This document shows, in pieces, positions 4,807 through 26,456 of a DNA stretch of 35,096 bases. This stretch comes from Anaerolineae bacterium. GTDB taxonomy: Bacteria > Chloroflexota > Anaerolineae > SpSt-600. The notes below the pieces were generated by a model, which was not told the DNA's origin, ran no database searches, and worked only from the letters and a program-made list of their open reading frames with translations. A program made the position numbers and the translations under genes. Location of the stretch: NCBI GenBank assembly GCA_025062375.1, contig JANXAG010000014.1, positions 12,501 to 47,596 on the forward strand, in the 5' to 3' direction. Every line of letters starts with the position of its first letter. Positions within the stretch are counted from its first letter, which is position 1.

Positions 4807-6811
4807 CCTCGCCTTAAAGCCTCAAGCAGGGGAAAGGGTCCTGAAAGTAGCCCTCGCTGGACAACCCAATGTGGGTAAATCCACCGTTTTTAACATCCTT
4901 ACAGGCCTTTCCCAGCATGTGGGAAACTGGCCCGGCAAAACCGTGGAAAAAAAGAGCGGTTACTGCCGCTACGGAAAATATCTTCTCCACATCGTAGACC
5001 TCCCAGGCACCTACAGCCTCACGGCTAACTCCGTGGAGGAAAAGATTGCCAGAGATTACATCATCAAAGAAAGGCCAGATGTAGTGGTGGCACTGGTTGA
5101 TGCCGCCGTTCTGGAGCGAAACCTCTACCTTTTAGCCGAGCTCCTTCTGCTCCCGTCCCCCGTAGTTCTGGGGCTCAACATGATGGATGTGGCAGAGCAG
5201 CAGGGATATAAAATAGATGTAAGCGCTCTTCAGGCAGTTCTGGGAATCCCTGTGGTCCCCATGGTTGCTTCCAAAAACCAGGGGATAAGGGAACTTGTGG
5301 AGACAATAATCAAATTAGCGGAAGGCCTCGTTCCATACAACCCCAGACGCCCAGAAATAAAGGAACCCCATAGACCTGTTTTGGATAAGCTCAAAGGGCT
5401 CCTCAATGGCCTGATCCCGGAGCCATACCCCGTGGATTGGGTAAGCCTAAAACTCCTTGAAGGCGATGCCGAGGTCACTGAGCTTGCCAGGGAGAAGTTA
5501 AGCGGCGATAAATGGGAGGAGATAAGTGCGCTCCTTAAAGGGCATGAAGATGCCATCTTGGATATAGCCAGCGGCCGCTATGAGTGGATCAGCAGGCTCG
5601 TAAGGGTAGCCGTCGAAAGGCCGCGGATTGGACCTGTAACCCTTACCGAACGCCTCGACCGGATAGCTACTCACCCTCTGTGGGGACTTTTTACGGTGAT
5701 CCTGGCCCTCGGGATTGTCTTCTGGCTCACCTACTCCATCGGTTCTCCCATCCAAAGCTGGTTAGAAGAAAAAGTGCTGATTTCCCTGACCGAGGTGGTC
5801 TCTTCTTGGCTGGCAGCTTGGGAAGCTCCTTCCTGGATAAGGGGACTGCTTATTGACGGAATCCTGGGAGGGGTAGGGACTGTCCTATCCTTTTTCCCGA
5901 TATTGGCCGTTTTCTTCGCTGCCTTCGGTTTCCTGGAAGACATCGGTTACATAGCCCGAATAGCCTATGTACTAGACCGTTTCATGCACTGGATAGGGCT
6001 TCACGGTAAATCGTTCCTCCCCATCTTCATGGGGTTTGGATGCAATGTTCCAGCGGTGATGGGAACCAGGATAATTGAAGATCCAAAGGCTCGCCTCCTA
6101 ACCATACTCCTGGCTCCCTTTGTCCCCTGCACTGCCAGAATGGCGGTGCTGGCCTTCCTAACTCCTGTCTTTTTCAAAGAAAAAGCTTTTCTTGTTTCCT
6201 GGGGCCTTATCCTTATCAACTTGGCAGTCCTGGCTCTGGTGGGTAAAGCCCTAAATGCTCTGGTTTTCAAGGAACGCATGGCTTTTATAATGGAATTACC
6301 CTTGTATCACTGGCCCAACTTCCGCACCATTGGCCTTATAACCTGGCACAGAACTGCAGCCTTCCTCAAAAAGGCCGGAACTGTAATTCTGGCTGTTTCA
6401 GCGATAATATGGACCCTTTCCTATTTCCCAACCGGTTCCTTTGAAAACAGCTTCTTGGCCAGCTTCGGAGCTATCCTTGAGCCTCTTGGCCGTCTGGCGG
6501 GGCTGGATTCCCGGATGGTAATAGCACTCTTGACAAGCTTCATAGCTAAGGAGAACGCTGTGGCCACCCTCGGCGTTCTGTATGGAAGCGAGGGAGAGGC
6601 TCTGGCTTCCGCCCTGGAAAAAGAAGTTCCCCTCAGCGCGGGCCTTTCCTTTCTGGTGATGGAGATGCTCTTCATACCCTGCGTAGCTACGATAGCTGCT
6701 ATCCGCCAGGAGACAGGGGGCTGGCGCTGGACTTTGGCGGCGATAGGGCTTTACCTGGTTATATCCTTCCTGGCCGGGATCGCCGTTCACCAGATTCTTT
6801 CGCAATGGTGA
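4781..6811 (+). CDS. feoB: Ferrous iron transport protein B (FeoB)
   Basis: A 676-residue membrane permease. The N-terminal G domain shows GQPNVGKST (G1, from residue 27), DLPGTYSL (G3, from 73) and NMMD (G4, 133-136). After a helical guanine-dissociation-inhibitor region the protein becomes strongly hydrophobic, with two gate repeats; the first has GFGCNVPAVMGTRI and a following PCTARM segment, the second SFIAKENAVATLGVLYG and FIPCVATI. It transports Fe2+ inward, driven or gated by GTP. It is somewhat shorter than E. coli FeoB (773) but complete. The start overlaps feoA and has GGAAGAAG upstream. Fur control of the pair is inferred from the operator at 4503-4521. Confidence 0.97.
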   Translation: MQECHDFLDLALKPQAGERVLKVALAGQPNVGKSTVFNILTGLSQHVGNWPGKTVEKKSGYCRYGKYLLHIVDLPGTYSLTANSVEEKIARDYIIKERPDVVVALVDAAVLERNLYLLAELLLLPSPVVLGLNMMDVAEQQGYKIDVSALQAVLGIPVVPMVASKNQGIRELVETIIKLAEGLVPYNPRRPEIKEPHRPVLDKLKGLLNGLIPEPYPVDWVSLKLLEGDAEVTELAREKLSGDKWEEISALLKGHEDAILDIASGRYEWISRLVRVAVERPRIGPVTLTERLDRIATHPLWGLFTVILALGIVFWLTYSIGSPIQSWLEEKVLISLTEVVSSWLAAWEAPSWIRGLLIDGILGGVGTVLSFFPILAVFFAAFGFLEDIGYIARIAYVLDRFMHWIGLHGKSFLPIFMGFGCNVPAVMGTRIIEDPKARLLTILLAPFVPCTARMAVLAFLTPVFFKEKAFLVSWGLILINLAVLALVGKALNALVFKERMAFIMELPLYHWPNFRTIGLITWHRTAAFLKKAGTVILAVSAIIWTLSYFPTGSFENSFLASFGAILEPLGRLAGLDSRMVIALLTSFIAKENAVATLGVLYGSEGEALASALEKEVPLSAGLSFLVMEMLFIPCVATIAAIRQETGGWRWTLAAIGLYLVISFLAGIAVHQILSQW

Positions 6812-19916: not shown

Positions 19917-22418
19917 ATGTATCAGCTCGATCAATTTACGGAAAAAGCTCAGGAAGCTGCAATGCGCACCCATGAAATAATTCAGCGCTTCGGCCACTCA
20001 ATGGCCGATACCGAACATATGCTTTTAGCTTTGCTGGAGCAGGCCAATGGCACCGTCCCCATGCTCCTGGAGTCTATGGGAGTTGATCCCTATGAAATGA
20101 GGAATGAACTGGAAAAAATCCTCAGGGCCCTTCCCCAGGCTCCGGCCTTCTATGCCTCTTTTTCAACAAGCCAATTCTATATGACCCCTCGCCTCAAAAA
20201 AGTGATGGATCTGGCAAAAGAAGAAGCCCGCCGCATGGGGGACCAATACGTTTCCACCGAACATATATTCCTGGCTATCGCCAGCGAGAGCGGCTCCCAT
20301 GCAGCCAGGCTTTTAGCCCGTTACCGCATCACAAAAGCCGATATATACGAAGCTATAAAAGAACTGCGCAAAGGTCAGAAGGTGCTGGATCCAGATATGG
20401 AAAGCCGATATAGAATCCTGGAGCGCTTCAGCCAAGACCTTGTCCAGATGGCTTTGGAGGGGAAACTCGACCCGGTCATAGGGCGCGAGGCGGAAATAAT
20501 GCGGGTTATACAGGTCCTTTGCCGGCGCATAAAAAACAACCCGGTCCTCATAGGAAAGGCTGGCGTAGGCAAAACCGCCATCGTGGAAGGCCTCGCCCAG
20601 AAGATAGCAGCGGGAGAGGTCCCGGAAATCCTCCAGGGAACCAGAATCCTCTCCCTGGACCTAGGAGCCATGATTGCCGGGACCAAGCTCAGGGGAGAGT
20701 TTGAGGAGCGCCTCAAAGCCGCTATTAACGAAATCAAGAACTCTCAAGGAAAGATCATCCTCTTTATAGACGAAATCCACACCATCGTGGGGACAGGGGG
20801 AGCTTTAGGGGCGATGGATGCAGCCACCATCCTCAAACCTGCTTTGGCCAGGGGAGAACTTCGCTGTATCGGGACCACAACCCCAGATGACTACCGCAAA
20901 TTTATTGAGAGAGACCCAGCTCTGGAGCGGCGTTTCGCCCCTGTTTACGTGGAGGAACCTTCCATTGAGGAAGCCATTGCAATGTTAAAAGGCCTCCGTT
21001 CCCGCTACGAAGAGCATCACAGGGTTGTTATCACCGACCAGGCCCTGGAAGCCGCCGTAAGGCTTTCCCACCGTTACGTAACTGACCGCTCCCTACCCGA
21101 TAAGGCCGTTGACCTCATCGATGAAGCGGCAGCTAAGGTGCGGATTGCTACCCTTAACCTTCCTTCAGACCTCAAAGAGATTCAGAAGAAGATAAAAGAG
21201 CTCAAAGCCCAGGAAGAAGACGCCTTCTCCTCCGGGAACTTTGAGCGGCATGCTCGGATCAAAACCGAGAGGCTTCGTCTTGAGGAAGAATTCCGGCGCA
21301 GGCACGAAGCCTGGAGAAAGGAAGCCGGAATAGATGAGGTGGTGGATCAGGAGGACATAGCTGAGGTTGTATCCACCTGGACAGGTGTCCCGGTATACAA
21401 CCTTATGGAAAGTGAGGCTCAGAAGCTTCTCCGGATGGAAGAATATCTCCATCAGCGCATAGTAGGACAGGAAGAGGCTATTGCTGCCGTCTCCGATGCT
21501 ATAAGGAGAGCTCGCTCTGGCCTTAAGGACCCACGCCGCCCCATAGCCACCTTCATTTTCCTGGGGCCATCAGGAGTTGGCAAAACCGAATTGGCCAAAG
21601 CCTTGGCCTGGTTCCTTTTTGACGATGAAGATGCTCTTGTCCGCATTGACATGAGCGAATACCAGGAACGCCACACTGTCTCGCGTCTCATTGGCGCACC
21701 TCCTGGCTATGTGGGTTACGAAGAGGGAGGCCAGCTTACCGAAGCCGTCCGCCGTCGTCCCTACAGGGTCATCCTCTTTGACGAGGTGGAAAAGGCTCAT
21801 CCTGACGTCTGGAACACCCTTCTCCAGGTTCTGGACGAAGGCCGTTTGACCGATGGTCATGGACGAACGGTGGATTTTCGCAATACAGTCATCATTATGA
21901 CTTCCAACATCGGCACAAGGCACGCTTACCGCAGTGGAACCATAGGTTTCCTGCGCTCAGAAAACCTCACCCCTGAGGAGAAGGAGTTGCGGCGGGAGAT
22001 AGAAGCTCACCTTAAGGCTACCTTCAGACCTGAATTCCTGAACCGGATTGACGAAATCATCGTCTTTCATGCCCTCACGAAAGAGCAGGTCAAACAGATC
22101 GTGGACCTTCAGCTTAAAGAGATAAACCAGAGGCTGAGGGATCAGGGGGTTAAACTGGAGCTGACGGAAAGAGCCAGAGATTGGCTTGCCGAAAAAGGCT
22201 ATGATCCCAACTTTGGAGCGAGACCCCTTCGTCGGGCCATGCAGAAACTTGTGGAGAACCCGTTAGCCAAGAAGCTCCTAAAAGGCGATTTCAAGTTCGG
22301 TGACATAATCTTAGTGGACTTTGACGAGGATAAGGAGGAGCTGACTTTTGAGCGTAAGGGCGAGCTGAGCCTGGCCTCTGCCCCCGCTGAAGCTGCTGAA
22401 ATTGAGAGGGGTAAATAA
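19917..22418 (+). CDS. clpC: ATP-dependent Clp protease ATPase subunit ClpC
   Basis: An 833-residue Hsp100 unfoldase. Two Clp_N repeats occupy about 1-150. AAA-1 has GKAGVGKT at 213-220 and [13 protein letters not shown] short middle region near 425-455 ([16 protein letters not shown]) is typical of ClpC and far shorter than ClpB's M domain. AAA-2 has [15 protein letters not shown] near 550 and [20 protein letters not shown] near residue 675 is the ClpP-docking loop, so it should feed ClpP (not in this window). GGAGG lies 10 bases before the ATG. It is probably co-transcribed with dnaJ and the baeRF gene. Confidence 0.95.
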
Positions 22419-22443
22419 GCTAAAAACGAAAAGGGAGCTGGGT

Positions 22444-24003
22444 GTGAAAGGGTTAGTAAAATGCCCTTTGTGTGATGAGTTAGTAAGAGAGAATCTGCGC
22501 CAGCATGTCCTCTCTCTTCATGGAGAAGAAGGGTTTCGGCGTGCTATTTTGCTGGAGAAAGAGAGCGGGATGTCTGATGCTGAAATTGGTCGCCGTTATG
22601 GTATTTCTTTTGGCACTCTCCAGCAGCTTGTCACTCAGCTCTATGGAGTAAACCTCAGCGTTCTTCGCCCCCCAAAGCGTATAAAACGATGGTGCCCTCC
22701 TAATTTTCGCTTAGAAACTACCACTGTATGGAGTTTCAAGCAACGGGGCGATTGGGCCACTCACGATGGCCGCTATCGTGGAAACTGGTCCCCATATATA
22801 CCACGAAATATCATTTTAAGGTATTCCCAACCAGGGGATCTCGTAATGGATTACTTTGTCGGCGGTGGGACAACTGCAGTAGAAGCAAAACTTCTTGGCC
22901 GTCGCTGTATTGCGCGAGACATAAATCCCCAAGCGATAGCTTTAACTTTGCAGAACCTTGAGTTTTCCCCTCCTCCTTCGCTTCTAAATGGGAAAACTAT
23001 TTACGAACCGATTGTGGAAGTTGGAGATGCCCGAGATCTTTCCAGCATTCCGGATGAGAGTGTGGATCTGATTTGTGCTCATCCTCCCTATGCTGGGATC
23101 ATCAAATACTCCAGTGGCGTTCCTGGGGACCTATCTGCTCTTCCACTTCCTAAGTTTTTGAAGGAAATGCAGCGGGTTGCGGAAGAGAGTCTACGAGTGC
23201 TAAAACCAGGTGGAAAATGTGCAATCTTGGTTGGCGATGCACGGAAGTCTAAACACGTTGTCCCTATCGGCTTTATGTTAATAAGGACCTTTCTGGATGT
23301 TGGCTTCAAGTTGAAAGAGCTCATCATCAAAAGGCAACATAATTGCAGAATGACAGGTTTCTGGTATGAAAGGAGCATCCATTACAATTTTCTGTTATTA
23401 GCTCATGAGTATCTTCCTGTTTTTGAGAAGCCCAGGGTTACCTTCGTTAAGGAACCGACTCCAGTTTGGGAGCAATCCTTAACCTACCGGATAATGTTGG
23501 AAAAAATTCGCCAGGTAAAGGCGGAACATTTAGAGACAACCACTGTATGGATTTTTCCAAGCGAACGCCAGGAGGAAGAAATTAAGCGCAATCTTAGCTG
23601 GAGATATGCCGGAAATAGAGAGGATTTTCTCAAAATTCAATTTAGCCCCTGTTGGGAACACGACAGCCTTCAATTACCACTTTGGAAAAACGATTTAATG
23701 CTGGTCCAAGGATTAGAAGAATGGGATGAAGGGAGCTTCGCAGGTTACAGAAAGGTGGTGAAAGAGCTTGCTCGGCAAGTCAATTGCGCTTATTTGGTCA
23801 TAGAAGCGAAGGATTTCAGGAGACATAATGGTGAACTTGTCCCGGCCGCTTTGTTATTGTGGGAAGACTTGGAACCTCAAAAATCATTGGTTCTCAAAGA
23901 GATTATAATCGTTGTACCGGAGGAGCTTACCTCTGAGTTTAATGCAGCTGACTTAAGGATTGTGCATAAATACCTCCTGGTTTACGCGAGGAAGCGACCA
24001 TGA
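22444..24003 (+). CDS. DNA methyltransferase with N-terminal zinc finger
   Basis: A 519-residue protein. A C2H2-like finger (C7, C10, H21, H26) and a helix-turn-helix-like part (43-68) lead into an amino-methyltransferase domain with motif I DYFVGGGTTAVEA (136-148), acidic D159, and catalytic motif IV AHPPY (212-216) in place of DPPY. Motif I precedes IV. Residues about 360-519 form a second, unrecognised domain that begins with LETTTVWIF, echoing LETTTVWSF at 90-98. A predicted N6-adenine or N4-cytosine modifier. GTG 22444 follows GGGAG by 6 bases; the TTG at 22402 is the alternative. Composition is visibly AT-richer than clpC, suggesting transfer. Confidence 0.82.
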   Translation: MKGLVKCPLCDELVRENLRQHVLSLHGEEGFRRAILLEKESGMSDAEIGRRYGISFGTLQQLVTQLYGVNLSVLRPPKRIKRWCPPNFRLETTTVWSFKQRGDWATHDGRYRGNWSPYIPRNIILRYSQPGDLVMDYFVGGGTTAVEAKLLGRRCIARDINPQAIALTLQNLEFSPPPSLLNGKTIYEPIVEVGDARDLSSIPDESVDLICAHPPYAGIIKYSSGVPGDLSALPLPKFLKEMQRVAEESLRVLKPGGKCAILVGDARKSKHVVPIGFMLIRTFLDVGFKLKELIIKRQHNCRMTGFWYERSIHYNFLLLAHEYLPVFEKPRVTFVKEPTPVWEQSLTYRIMLEKIRQVKAEHLETTTVWIFPSERQEEEIKRNLSWRYAGNREDFLKIQFSPCWEHDSLQLPLWKNDLMLVQGLEEWDEGSFAGYRKVVKELARQVNCAYLVIEAKDFRRHNGELVPAALLLWEDLEPQKSLVLKEIIIVVPEELTSEFNAADLRIVHKYLLVYARKRP

Positions 24004-24386
24004 ATCCGCGAAACACTTCTACAGGGAAAGTGCTGGAAGCTCTGATTCTCCCTGCATTGGAGCAGGGAGGATACAAATACAGGAAACGTGCCTTTGTGGG
24101 CACACGTTTGGGTGGAGGTAAACATTTTGTAGATGTTTTAGCAGAAGATTCGGAAGGTAAAAAGTATCTCATTTCACTGAAGTGGCAACAAGTTCCCGGT
24201 ACGGCTGAACAAAAAGTGCCTTTCGAGGTTTTGAGTTTGATTGATGCGATTCTTTCTTCGGGGGGAAAGTTCTACAAAGCATACCTGGTACTCGGTGGCC
24301 CTGGATGGCGTTTGCGAGAATTTTTCGTAAAAGGAGGGTTAAGCAAGTATTTGCGTTATGGTGAAAGATTTTATCGCCTTGGCTAA
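24000..24386 (+). CDS. PD-(D/E)XK-superfamily nuclease, probable restriction enzyme
   Basis: A 128-residue protein whose ATG overlaps the methyltransferase stop (ATGA). The core HFVDVLAEDSEGKKYLISLKWQ has D45 and a S59-x-K61 pair on consecutive strands, the geometry of PD-(D/E)XK nucleases, with serine in place of the usual acidic residue and Q63 just after. GTAEQKVPFEVL (67-78) follows, a block I associate with small predicted restriction nucleases. E13 in the first helix may be the additional metal ligand. Coupled to a DNA methyltransferase, it is most simply the cutting half of a type II restriction-modification system; a repair nuclease is the alternative. Confidence 0.72.
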   Translation: MNPRNTSTGKVLEALILPALEQGGYKYRKRAFVGTRLGGGKHFVDVLAEDSEGKKYLISLKWQQVPGTAEQKVPFEVLSLIDAILSSGGKFYKAYLVLGGPGWRLREFFVKGGLSKYLRYGERFYRLG

Positions 24387-24416
24387 CAGACAAAATTTGT
24401 GAGATAAGGAGAAGAA

Positions 24417-26456
24417 ATGGCTGTTATCTTCCCTTTCACGGCTATCGTTGGGCAGGAAAAAATGAAACTGGCCCTTATCCTCAATGCCATAAACCCCCAG
24501 ATAGGTGGGGTTCTGATAAGAGGGGAGAGGGGTACGGCTAAGTCTACTGCAGCCAGAGCCTTGGCCTATTTGCTCCCTGAAATCAAAGTTGTGGCTGATT
24601 GCCCCTTCAATTGCGATCCCGATAACTCCGAAAACATGTGTGATTTTTGCAAAGAAAGGGTAGCCAGAGGGGAAAAGCTCCCTGTTGCATGGCGGAAAAC
24701 TCGCTTTGTGGACCTGCCCGTAAGCGCTACCGAAGATAGAGTTGTGGGAACTCTGGATATTGAGGCAGCTATAAAGCGTGGAGAACGCCGCTTCCAGCCT
24801 GGGGTCTTGGCTGCTGCTAACCGCGGTCTACTTTACGTGGACGAGGTAAATCTTCTGGATGATCACGTGGTGGATCTCCTCCTTGATTCCGCCGCCATGG
24901 GAGTCAATGTGGTGGAAAGAGAGGGCATATCTTTCTCTCATCCCGCCCGCTTTATCTTAGTAGGGACCATGAACCCTGAAGAGGGGGAGCTAAGGCCCCA
25001 GCTTTTAGACCGATTTGCCCTCTGCGTGGAGATAAAGGGCATAACGGATCCCGAGTTGAGGGTGGAAATCGTTAAAAGGGCTGTGGAATTTGAAAAGGAT
25101 CCCGAAGGATTCAGGAAGAAATGGGAGCCCAGAGAGAAGCGTTTATCCCAGGAAATAGCCAGGGCGCGGGAGCTCCTGCCCCATGTCACTTACACTGAAA
25201 CCGACCTTTACACTATCGCCAGGCTTACCTCCTCCTTTCAGGTGGATGGACACCGCGCTGATATAGTAATCCTTAAGACGGCCATAGCCCACGCCGCCTT
25301 CCGGGGACGCTCCCAGATCACCGATGAAGATATACTGATCGCTGCTGAGCTGGCACTGCCCCATCGCTTGCGCAAGCATCCCTTCCAGGAAGGTGGCATT
25401 ACTTCTGAAGAGCTTGGGGCTGCCCTCAAAGAACTCTCTCAAGAATTACTCCTTCTCCGCAATGGGGGAGGCGATGAGGAATCAGAAGGGGGTAGAAAAA
25501 CCGAGCCAAAGGAAGAGCAGGGCGAAGGGGAAGGCCAGGTCCCTTCACAGCCCACAGGCCAGCTCCTGAAAGGATACAAAACCGAACCTCTTGGCTTAAA
25601 AGCTCGCTCCCCTGACAACCCCGTTCCCGTGGGCGAAACTTTCAAACCCAAGCTATTAAGCACTCCACTGGATAGAATAACCCGGAAGATAGCAGGCAAA
25701 CGCAGTTACACCATTACCACCCGTAAGCGGGGTCGGTATATCCGCAGTCTTCCTGCTGAAACTCCAACCATGGATATAGCTTTTGATGCGACCGTCCGTT
25801 ATGCTGCTCCTTATCAACTTTCTCGACCCAGAGGGGAAACGGCCATAACCCTTACCCTTTCAGATTTGAGGAAAAAAGTCAGGGTGCGCAGGGCTTCGAA
25901 CCTCGTCCTTTTCGTGGTGGATGCCAGCTGGTCCATGGCCGCTTCCGAGAGGATGAAGGCGGCTAAAGGAGCTGTGATGTCTCTCCTGCAGGATGCGTAC
26001 AGGCGTCGGGATATGGTGGGCCTTATTGTATTCCAAAAACAGGAGGCAAGGGTTGTCCTTCCTCCTACCACCAGCATTGATTTAGCTCAGCGTGCTTTAA
26101 AGGATATACCAGTTGGAGGTAAAACTCCCCTATCCAGTGGATTGTACCTTGCCCGTAAGGTTCTGAAAATAGAAAGGCTAAAGCATCCGGAACTGCGTCC
26201 GCTTCTGGTTCTGCTAACCGATGGAGCAGCCAACGTCTCCATGGGCACGATGCATCCTCATAAAGAAGCTCTTAAAATTGCTGAGGCCATTCGACGGGAT
26301 GGAGTCCATTCTGTTGTCATAAACCTGGAATTTCAAGCCTTTGACCGTGGACTTGCTCGGGAATTAGCCGATGCCCTGGGGGGGCCCTGTTACAGGCTAA
26401 AAGATTTAGGAGCCAGAGAATTATACGAGGCAGTCAAGGAAGCCCTTGGGGATTAG
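24417..26456 (+). CDS. Mg/Co-chelatase-type AAA+ and VWA fusion protein
   Basis: A 679-residue fusion of the I and D chelatase subunits. The AAA+ part has GERGTAKST (36-44), four cysteines at C62, C66, C75 and C78, and [18 protein letters not shown] (Walker B) near residue 140. An acidic, glutamate-rich linker (about 345-385) leads to a VWA domain with MIDAS motif DASWSMA from about residue 501 and [12 protein letters not shown]. Families of this layout are annotated as putative cobaltochelatase motors. The large catalytic CobN/ChlH subunit is not in the window, so the metal and tetrapyrrole, or even a non-tetrapyrrole role, remain open. AAGGAGAAG precedes the ATG. Confidence 0.88.

Follow-up and report, generated by a model that had tools for sequence, protein, structure and literature searches.

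The DpnII locus of Streptococcus pneumoniae encodes DpnM, DpnA and DpnII, which act on GATC (PMC3573125), and in this species alternative GATC cassettes occupy one locus (PMC12707154). Here we describe a cassette of a methyltransferase gene (M) and a nuclease gene (R) from an Anaerolineae bacterium, located in a window of 35,096 nucleotides (the whole stretch of DNA that was analysed). We propose that it is probably a horizontally acquired type II restriction-modification system of the DpnII/Dam (GATC) group, with R in place of DpnII; what is new is the combination of parts, as a variant of GATC-type systems, not the kind of system.

A gene pair inserted between clpC and a chelatase gene

M and R sit between clpC, which ends at 22418, and a magnesium-chelatase-like gene, which starts at 24417:

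22444..24003, + strand, M, a 519-aa DNA methyltransferase (GTG start, TGA stop)
24000..24386, + strand, R, a predicted 128-aa PD-(D/E)XK nuclease of the PDDEXK_11 family (ATG start, TAA stop)
22401..24407, unstranded, inserted segment absent from the clpC-chelatase junction of the same-genus genome G001 (blastn)

The two reading frames overlap by 4 bp (ATGA), and the GTG of M is preceded, at a distance of 6 bases, by an AAGGGAG-like ribosome site; the position of the pair and its overlap are as a preliminary description of this DNA had given them. Separate methyltransferase and nuclease genes are adjacent, as in type II restriction-modification, and the pair is repeated in L007, L008, L022 and L032/L033. 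The cassette is well supported as a restriction-modification-like gene pair, the reading first given to it, with R matching a nuclease family by profile and having recurrent methyltransferase partners.

Aligned by blastn with G001 (L084), whose chelatase protein is 96% identical, the window matches up to position 22400 and resumes at 24408, with about 20 bp between these points in G001. The GC content is 0.454 in M and 0.447 in R against 0.528 in clpC and 0.522 in the chelatase gene, and third-position GC is 0.431 in M and 0.388 in R versus 0.582 and 0.515 in these neighbours. The G001 junction is empty, hence the pair is not conserved with clpC in all relatives; this and the lower GC, which had already been noticed against clpC and taken as a sign of horizontal acquisition, mark the cassette as a horizontally acquired insertion. 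Neither M (searched at E 1e-70) nor R was found in G001 or the same-family genome G002, both assemblies being only about 82-84% complete, and inspection of the segment ends revealed no target-site duplication and no visible integrase. The window genome (G000) comprises 2.15 Mb in 94 contigs, and its class includes Anaerolineae/Ardenticatenia records.

R is a predicted PDDEXK_11 nuclease with a frameshift near its 3' end

R matches PDDEXK_11 (PF20472) with an E-value of 1.8e-10 and 41.2 bits, passing the curated cut-off of 23.7, and also matches phrog_6124. Its AF2 model, built with 42 sequences (pLDDT 89.9), has an alpha-beta-beta-beta-alpha-beta core, and the top Foldseek matches among solved structures are mostly PD-(D/E)XK nucleases (AF1548, EndoMS/NucS and BstEII), all weak (E 2e-3 to 2e-2). 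R is thus predicted to have a PD-(D/E)XK fold, and the D...SxK nuclease core recognised earlier is sustained by both the profile and the model; the profile search of the small protein, proposed as a check, returned a nuclease family and not a non-nuclease one. The motif reads D45 ... S59-x-K61. Among the 42 sequences D45, K61, Q63, G67-T68-A69-E70 and K72 are invariant and E13 is present in 40. At the position where E-x-K motifs usually have glutamate, 41 sequences have serine and a single one has glutamate; E70 or E13 may supply the missing acid, by likeness to other S-x-K enzymes. A plasmid search with R gave no match, and a literature search on PDDEXK_11 found no paper naming the family, which does not prove that there is none.

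Relatives of R have a median length of 140 aa (126-155) versus 128 aa here, and are still small. Most of them end in a conserved FVSLANQAKL-like segment directly before the stop, and a counterpart of this segment is found in the window beyond the frame of R:

24367..24402, + strand, displaced original C-terminus of R (DFIALANRQNL, then stop) in another frame; the C-terminal HMM matches in frame 0, then in the next frame

Counted by eye, the 3' segment of R lacks about 23 bases relative to L007, which suggests a deletion in this region. From its reading frames R appears to be frameshifted upstream of the displaced C-terminus, its 128-aa size being due in part to a lesion or to a mistake in the assembly; the 128 residues given in the preliminary description stand as called, and the small size stressed there is partly a product of the frameshift. 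Restriction is probably weakened or lost in this genome. The cassette may be decaying altogether, with M left as an orphan methyltransferase in a regulatory or protective role and R as an inactive, dying remnant, a reading to which we give somewhat less than an even chance: the frameshift affects a segment that relatives conserve, and M occurs without any nuclease at L075 and L080, so that it may be used alone, and with disrupted partners at L079 and L082, while R keeps every catalytic residue and an intact frame to about residue 118, the 128-aa model is confident and a draft-assembly error is possible.

M combines a methyltransferase core with a finger, a helix-turn-helix and a degenerate copy of itself

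The following parts are recognised in M:

22462..22524, + strand, C2H2-like finger (CPLC...H...H), conserved in finger-bearing relatives; predicted strands then helix
22534..22632, + strand, helix-turn-helix (PF13518 HTH_28, E 5.6e-4, under the curated cut-off)
22855..22875, + strand, SAM-binding motif I (FVGGGTT; alignment A3)
23080..23091, + strand, catalytic motif IV (HPPY, residues 213-216; invariant in A3)
23524..23994, + strand, degenerate second methyltransferase copy (hhalign; start resembling motif X, then a half resembling IV-VIII; no SAM loop or PPY)

M matches N6_N4_Mtase (PF01555; E 1.6e-25, 90.8 bits, cut-off 26.7) in two pieces of swapped order, and the PADLOC profile MTase_II (PDLC03376) with an E-value of 3e-88. 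The motif order is X-I-IV, permuted relative to the Pfam model, with motif X and the SAM loop preceding HPPY. A structure model of M from 7 sequences is weak overall (pLDDT 65); Foldseek matches of the whole model are methyltransferases. We considered M as a relative of the beta-class DpnA, but the permuted motif order disfavours simple orthology, and only a correspondence of operon position is claimed. The N-terminal finger and the HPPY motif of the preliminary description are both confirmed; the finger matches Pfam zf-Di19 weakly (E 0.067), and the helix-turn-helix that follows it had not been mentioned before. Core-only relatives of M (L006 and L015) are without finger and helix-turn-helix. 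No inverted-repeat operator was found upstream of M.

An additional C-terminal domain had also been seen in M, though not what it resembles. By hhalign, the C-terminal 160 residues match the core of M itself with a probability of 95.9 and an E-value of 6e-9, followed by a second collinear match (E 1e-4), and these matches skip the SAM-binding part of the core. The self-match scores 61.7, compared with at most 24.9 in 60 column-shuffled controls and about 11-13 for unrelated alignments. In the structure model this domain has a pLDDT of mostly 75-90 and alternating strands and helices. We conclude that it is a degenerate, catalytically dead partial copy of the M core.

Partners of R and M in other genomes

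A scan of GTDB genomes yielded 42 relatives of R in other genomes, from many bacterial and archaeal phyla (L008 and the G016 match L003 are the same contig). A D12 (Dam/DpnM-like) methyltransferase adjoins R in 34 of the 42; five lie beside a finger-bearing M (L007, L008, L022, L032 and L033, the last two near-identical), one has an M-core gene downstream (L010), and in two no partner is visible beside R (L030 and L034). At 26 loci where the ends of the R and D12 genes were measured, one of them from a cyanophage, the genes mostly overlap or lie a few bases apart. The D12 partner of L014 has DpnM as its nearest solved structure (2dpm, E 5e-26), followed by Dam. In the 34 aligned D12 partners K9, L122, R124 and P134 are invariant and Y138 is present in 33; these are GATC-contacting residues of Dam, numbered by an E. 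coli Dam sequence that agrees with the available parts of the 2g1p alignment. The R tree, with three label changes and weak support, does not resolve a single origin of the M-type pairing.

In T4-like cyanophages (L005:4096-5417 and other contigs), a PDDEXK_11 gene annotated as hypothetical lies beside or near a Dam-like D12 gene; the two are possibly a phage-borne restriction-modification pair.

The nuclease might instead serve in repair or nicking, or as an accessory, working with M or with Dam marks in the manner of MutH or NucS. EndoMS/NucS is among the best structural neighbours of R, and in the cyanophages R has Dam next to it or nearby. On the other hand, R is steadily paired with methyltransferases across many phyla, is translationally coupled, is patchily distributed and swaps with DpnII, all of which are traits of restriction-modification, and we consider a repair role improbable.

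A search through 298 genomes of the class brought up close relatives of M in 12 other than the window genome, where the partner is R, a DpnII-family nuclease, a protein of about 160 aa, or none. A DpnII-family nuclease (PF04556, E 6e-35) lies beside M at L074, and M-core relatives are part of operons with D12 and DpnII at L192, L204 and L205. In Fusobacterium (L006) the M-core gene follows a DpnII-family nuclease (PF04556, E 5e-109) and an Mrr-like gene; at L015 M, D12 and R occur together, and at L198 M accompanies D12 and a distant R-like protein with a weak PF20472 match (E 7e-5) just under the cut-off.

Two other proteins recur near M. One, of about 160-185 aa, is encoded immediately after M in several genomes of this phylum (L076:5093-5584, L077:3047-3538 on the minus strand, L197:2277-2747 and L193:2859-3416), with remnants at L079 and L082; it contains an IQEKTNYP-like stretch that is invariant, matches no Pfam family, and is a candidate further nuclease or partner of M. 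The other, of about 450 aa, lies near M in two genomes (L078, oriented 5330-6679, and L195:2854-3747) and has only weak Pfam matches (DUF2400, E 0.02; TaqI REase, E 0.18).

The probable target site

The cassette is not classed as a DpnII system because R matches PF20472 only, with no match to the DpnII family (PF04556). A second methyltransferase, as in DpnII-type operons, is present, M-core homologues being part of L192, L204 and L205; a search of the window genome for a D12 methyltransferase (PF02086) found none. The target is likely to be GATC, because R and the M core each associate with Dam-like or DpnII-family proteins, an argument by association only. D12 methyltransferases with targets other than GATC exist. 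A system for another target, such as a different 4-6 bp palindrome, whose M and R lineages have drifted in specificity, seems rather unlikely to us: HPPY and the permuted order are unlike classic GATC methylases, the finger and helix-turn-helix could alter target choice and there is no M-linked signal of GATC avoidance, but the M core and, independently of it, R are each associated with Dam-like and DpnII-family proteins.

Word statistics were taken from fetched genome stretches (window genome, L099-L118; G001, G002, G003 and G011, L119-L145 and L152-L155). GATC in the window genome is mildly under expectation (observed/expected 0.66). Class members with and without M do not differ in GATC avoidance (p = 0.17), and avoidance was dropped as proof of the target on this ground. 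Nor was the gap in GATC between the window genome (0.66) and G001 of the same genus (0.07) used as evidence, CTAG and TCGA shifting the same way.

Loss of 4-bp palindromes in the fetched stretches is extreme and lineage-specific, as fractions of expectation: GATC 0.07, CTAG 0.01 and TCGA 0.02 in G001; CGCG 0.01, CATG 0.08 and GATC 0.14 in G002; TCGA 0.01 and AGCT 0.06 in G003; GTAC 0.00 and CTAG 0.03 in G011.

Proposed function and significance

Starting from what was computed (the gene pair, its families, insertion, pairing, duplication and frameshift), we infer the GATC target, cleavage, protection, the roles of the added domains and the loss of R activity as follows. M would methylate a site in host DNA, and R, a small PD-(D/E)XK nuclease acting probably as a dimer, would cut that site wherever it lacks methylation, a PDDEXK_11 enzyme having taken over the role of the DpnII nuclease. 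M may derive from the second, non-Dam methyltransferase of DpnII-type operons. Its finger and helix-turn-helix front could serve target binding or self-repression, and its dead copy could be a built-in dimer partner or a target-reading half. With the frameshift in R, restriction may be failing or ended here while methylation by M persists.

More tentatively, and with slightly more doubt than belief, we suggest that PDDEXK_11 may comprise widespread, very small GATC restriction enzymes that interchange with DpnII, and that finger-bearing M proteins may be single-chain pairs of an active and a dead half, the latter reading the target or dimerising on it. PDDEXK_11, an uncharacterised family, gains a concrete and testable role and target from this proposal. 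Nucleases and methylases would be exchanged as modules within one apparent specificity group in bacteria, archaea and phages, and M would be a DNA methyltransferase that carries its own dead twin. If true, an enzyme of about 140 residues that cuts GATC would also have practical value as a small restriction enzyme.

Comparison with known systems

The earlier judgement that the pair is unlike the well-known type II enzymes was overstated: the family of R is widespread and usually found beside Dam-like methyltransferases, and the M core occurs in DpnII-type operons. The cassette resembles the DpnII system (DpnM, DpnA and DpnII) in operon logic, the nuclease being encoded with its methyltransferase. 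It differs in that its nuclease belongs to PDDEXK_11 and not to PF04556, no D12 methyltransferase was found in the window genome, and M has the order X-I-IV, a finger and helix-turn-helix front and a putative dead copy at its end. The pairs of PDDEXK_11 and D12 genes in Ferroplasma acidarmanus (L046), Acidobacteria and cyanophages share the nuclease family and the tight gene coupling, R being mostly 50-62% identical to bacterial members and about 30-38% to those of phages and Thermoplasmata; they differ in that the D12 partner is not a finger-bearing M and their R genes mostly have a full C-terminus.

M.SsoII, M.Ecl18kI and M.EcoRII are m5C enzymes. Like M, they combine a type II methyltransferase with a fused DNA-binding domain (PMC12707154), a comparison of architecture only; M differs in having a finger and a helix-turn-helix, and the search for an operator-like inverted repeat gave none. 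For the putative dead copy, METTL3-METTL14, a pair of an active and a catalytically dead methyltransferase, offers an analogy, in which one active and one dead fold form a unit as we propose for M; in M, unlike METTL3-METTL14, a single polypeptide holds both copies, and the dead one is without the SAM-binding stretch.
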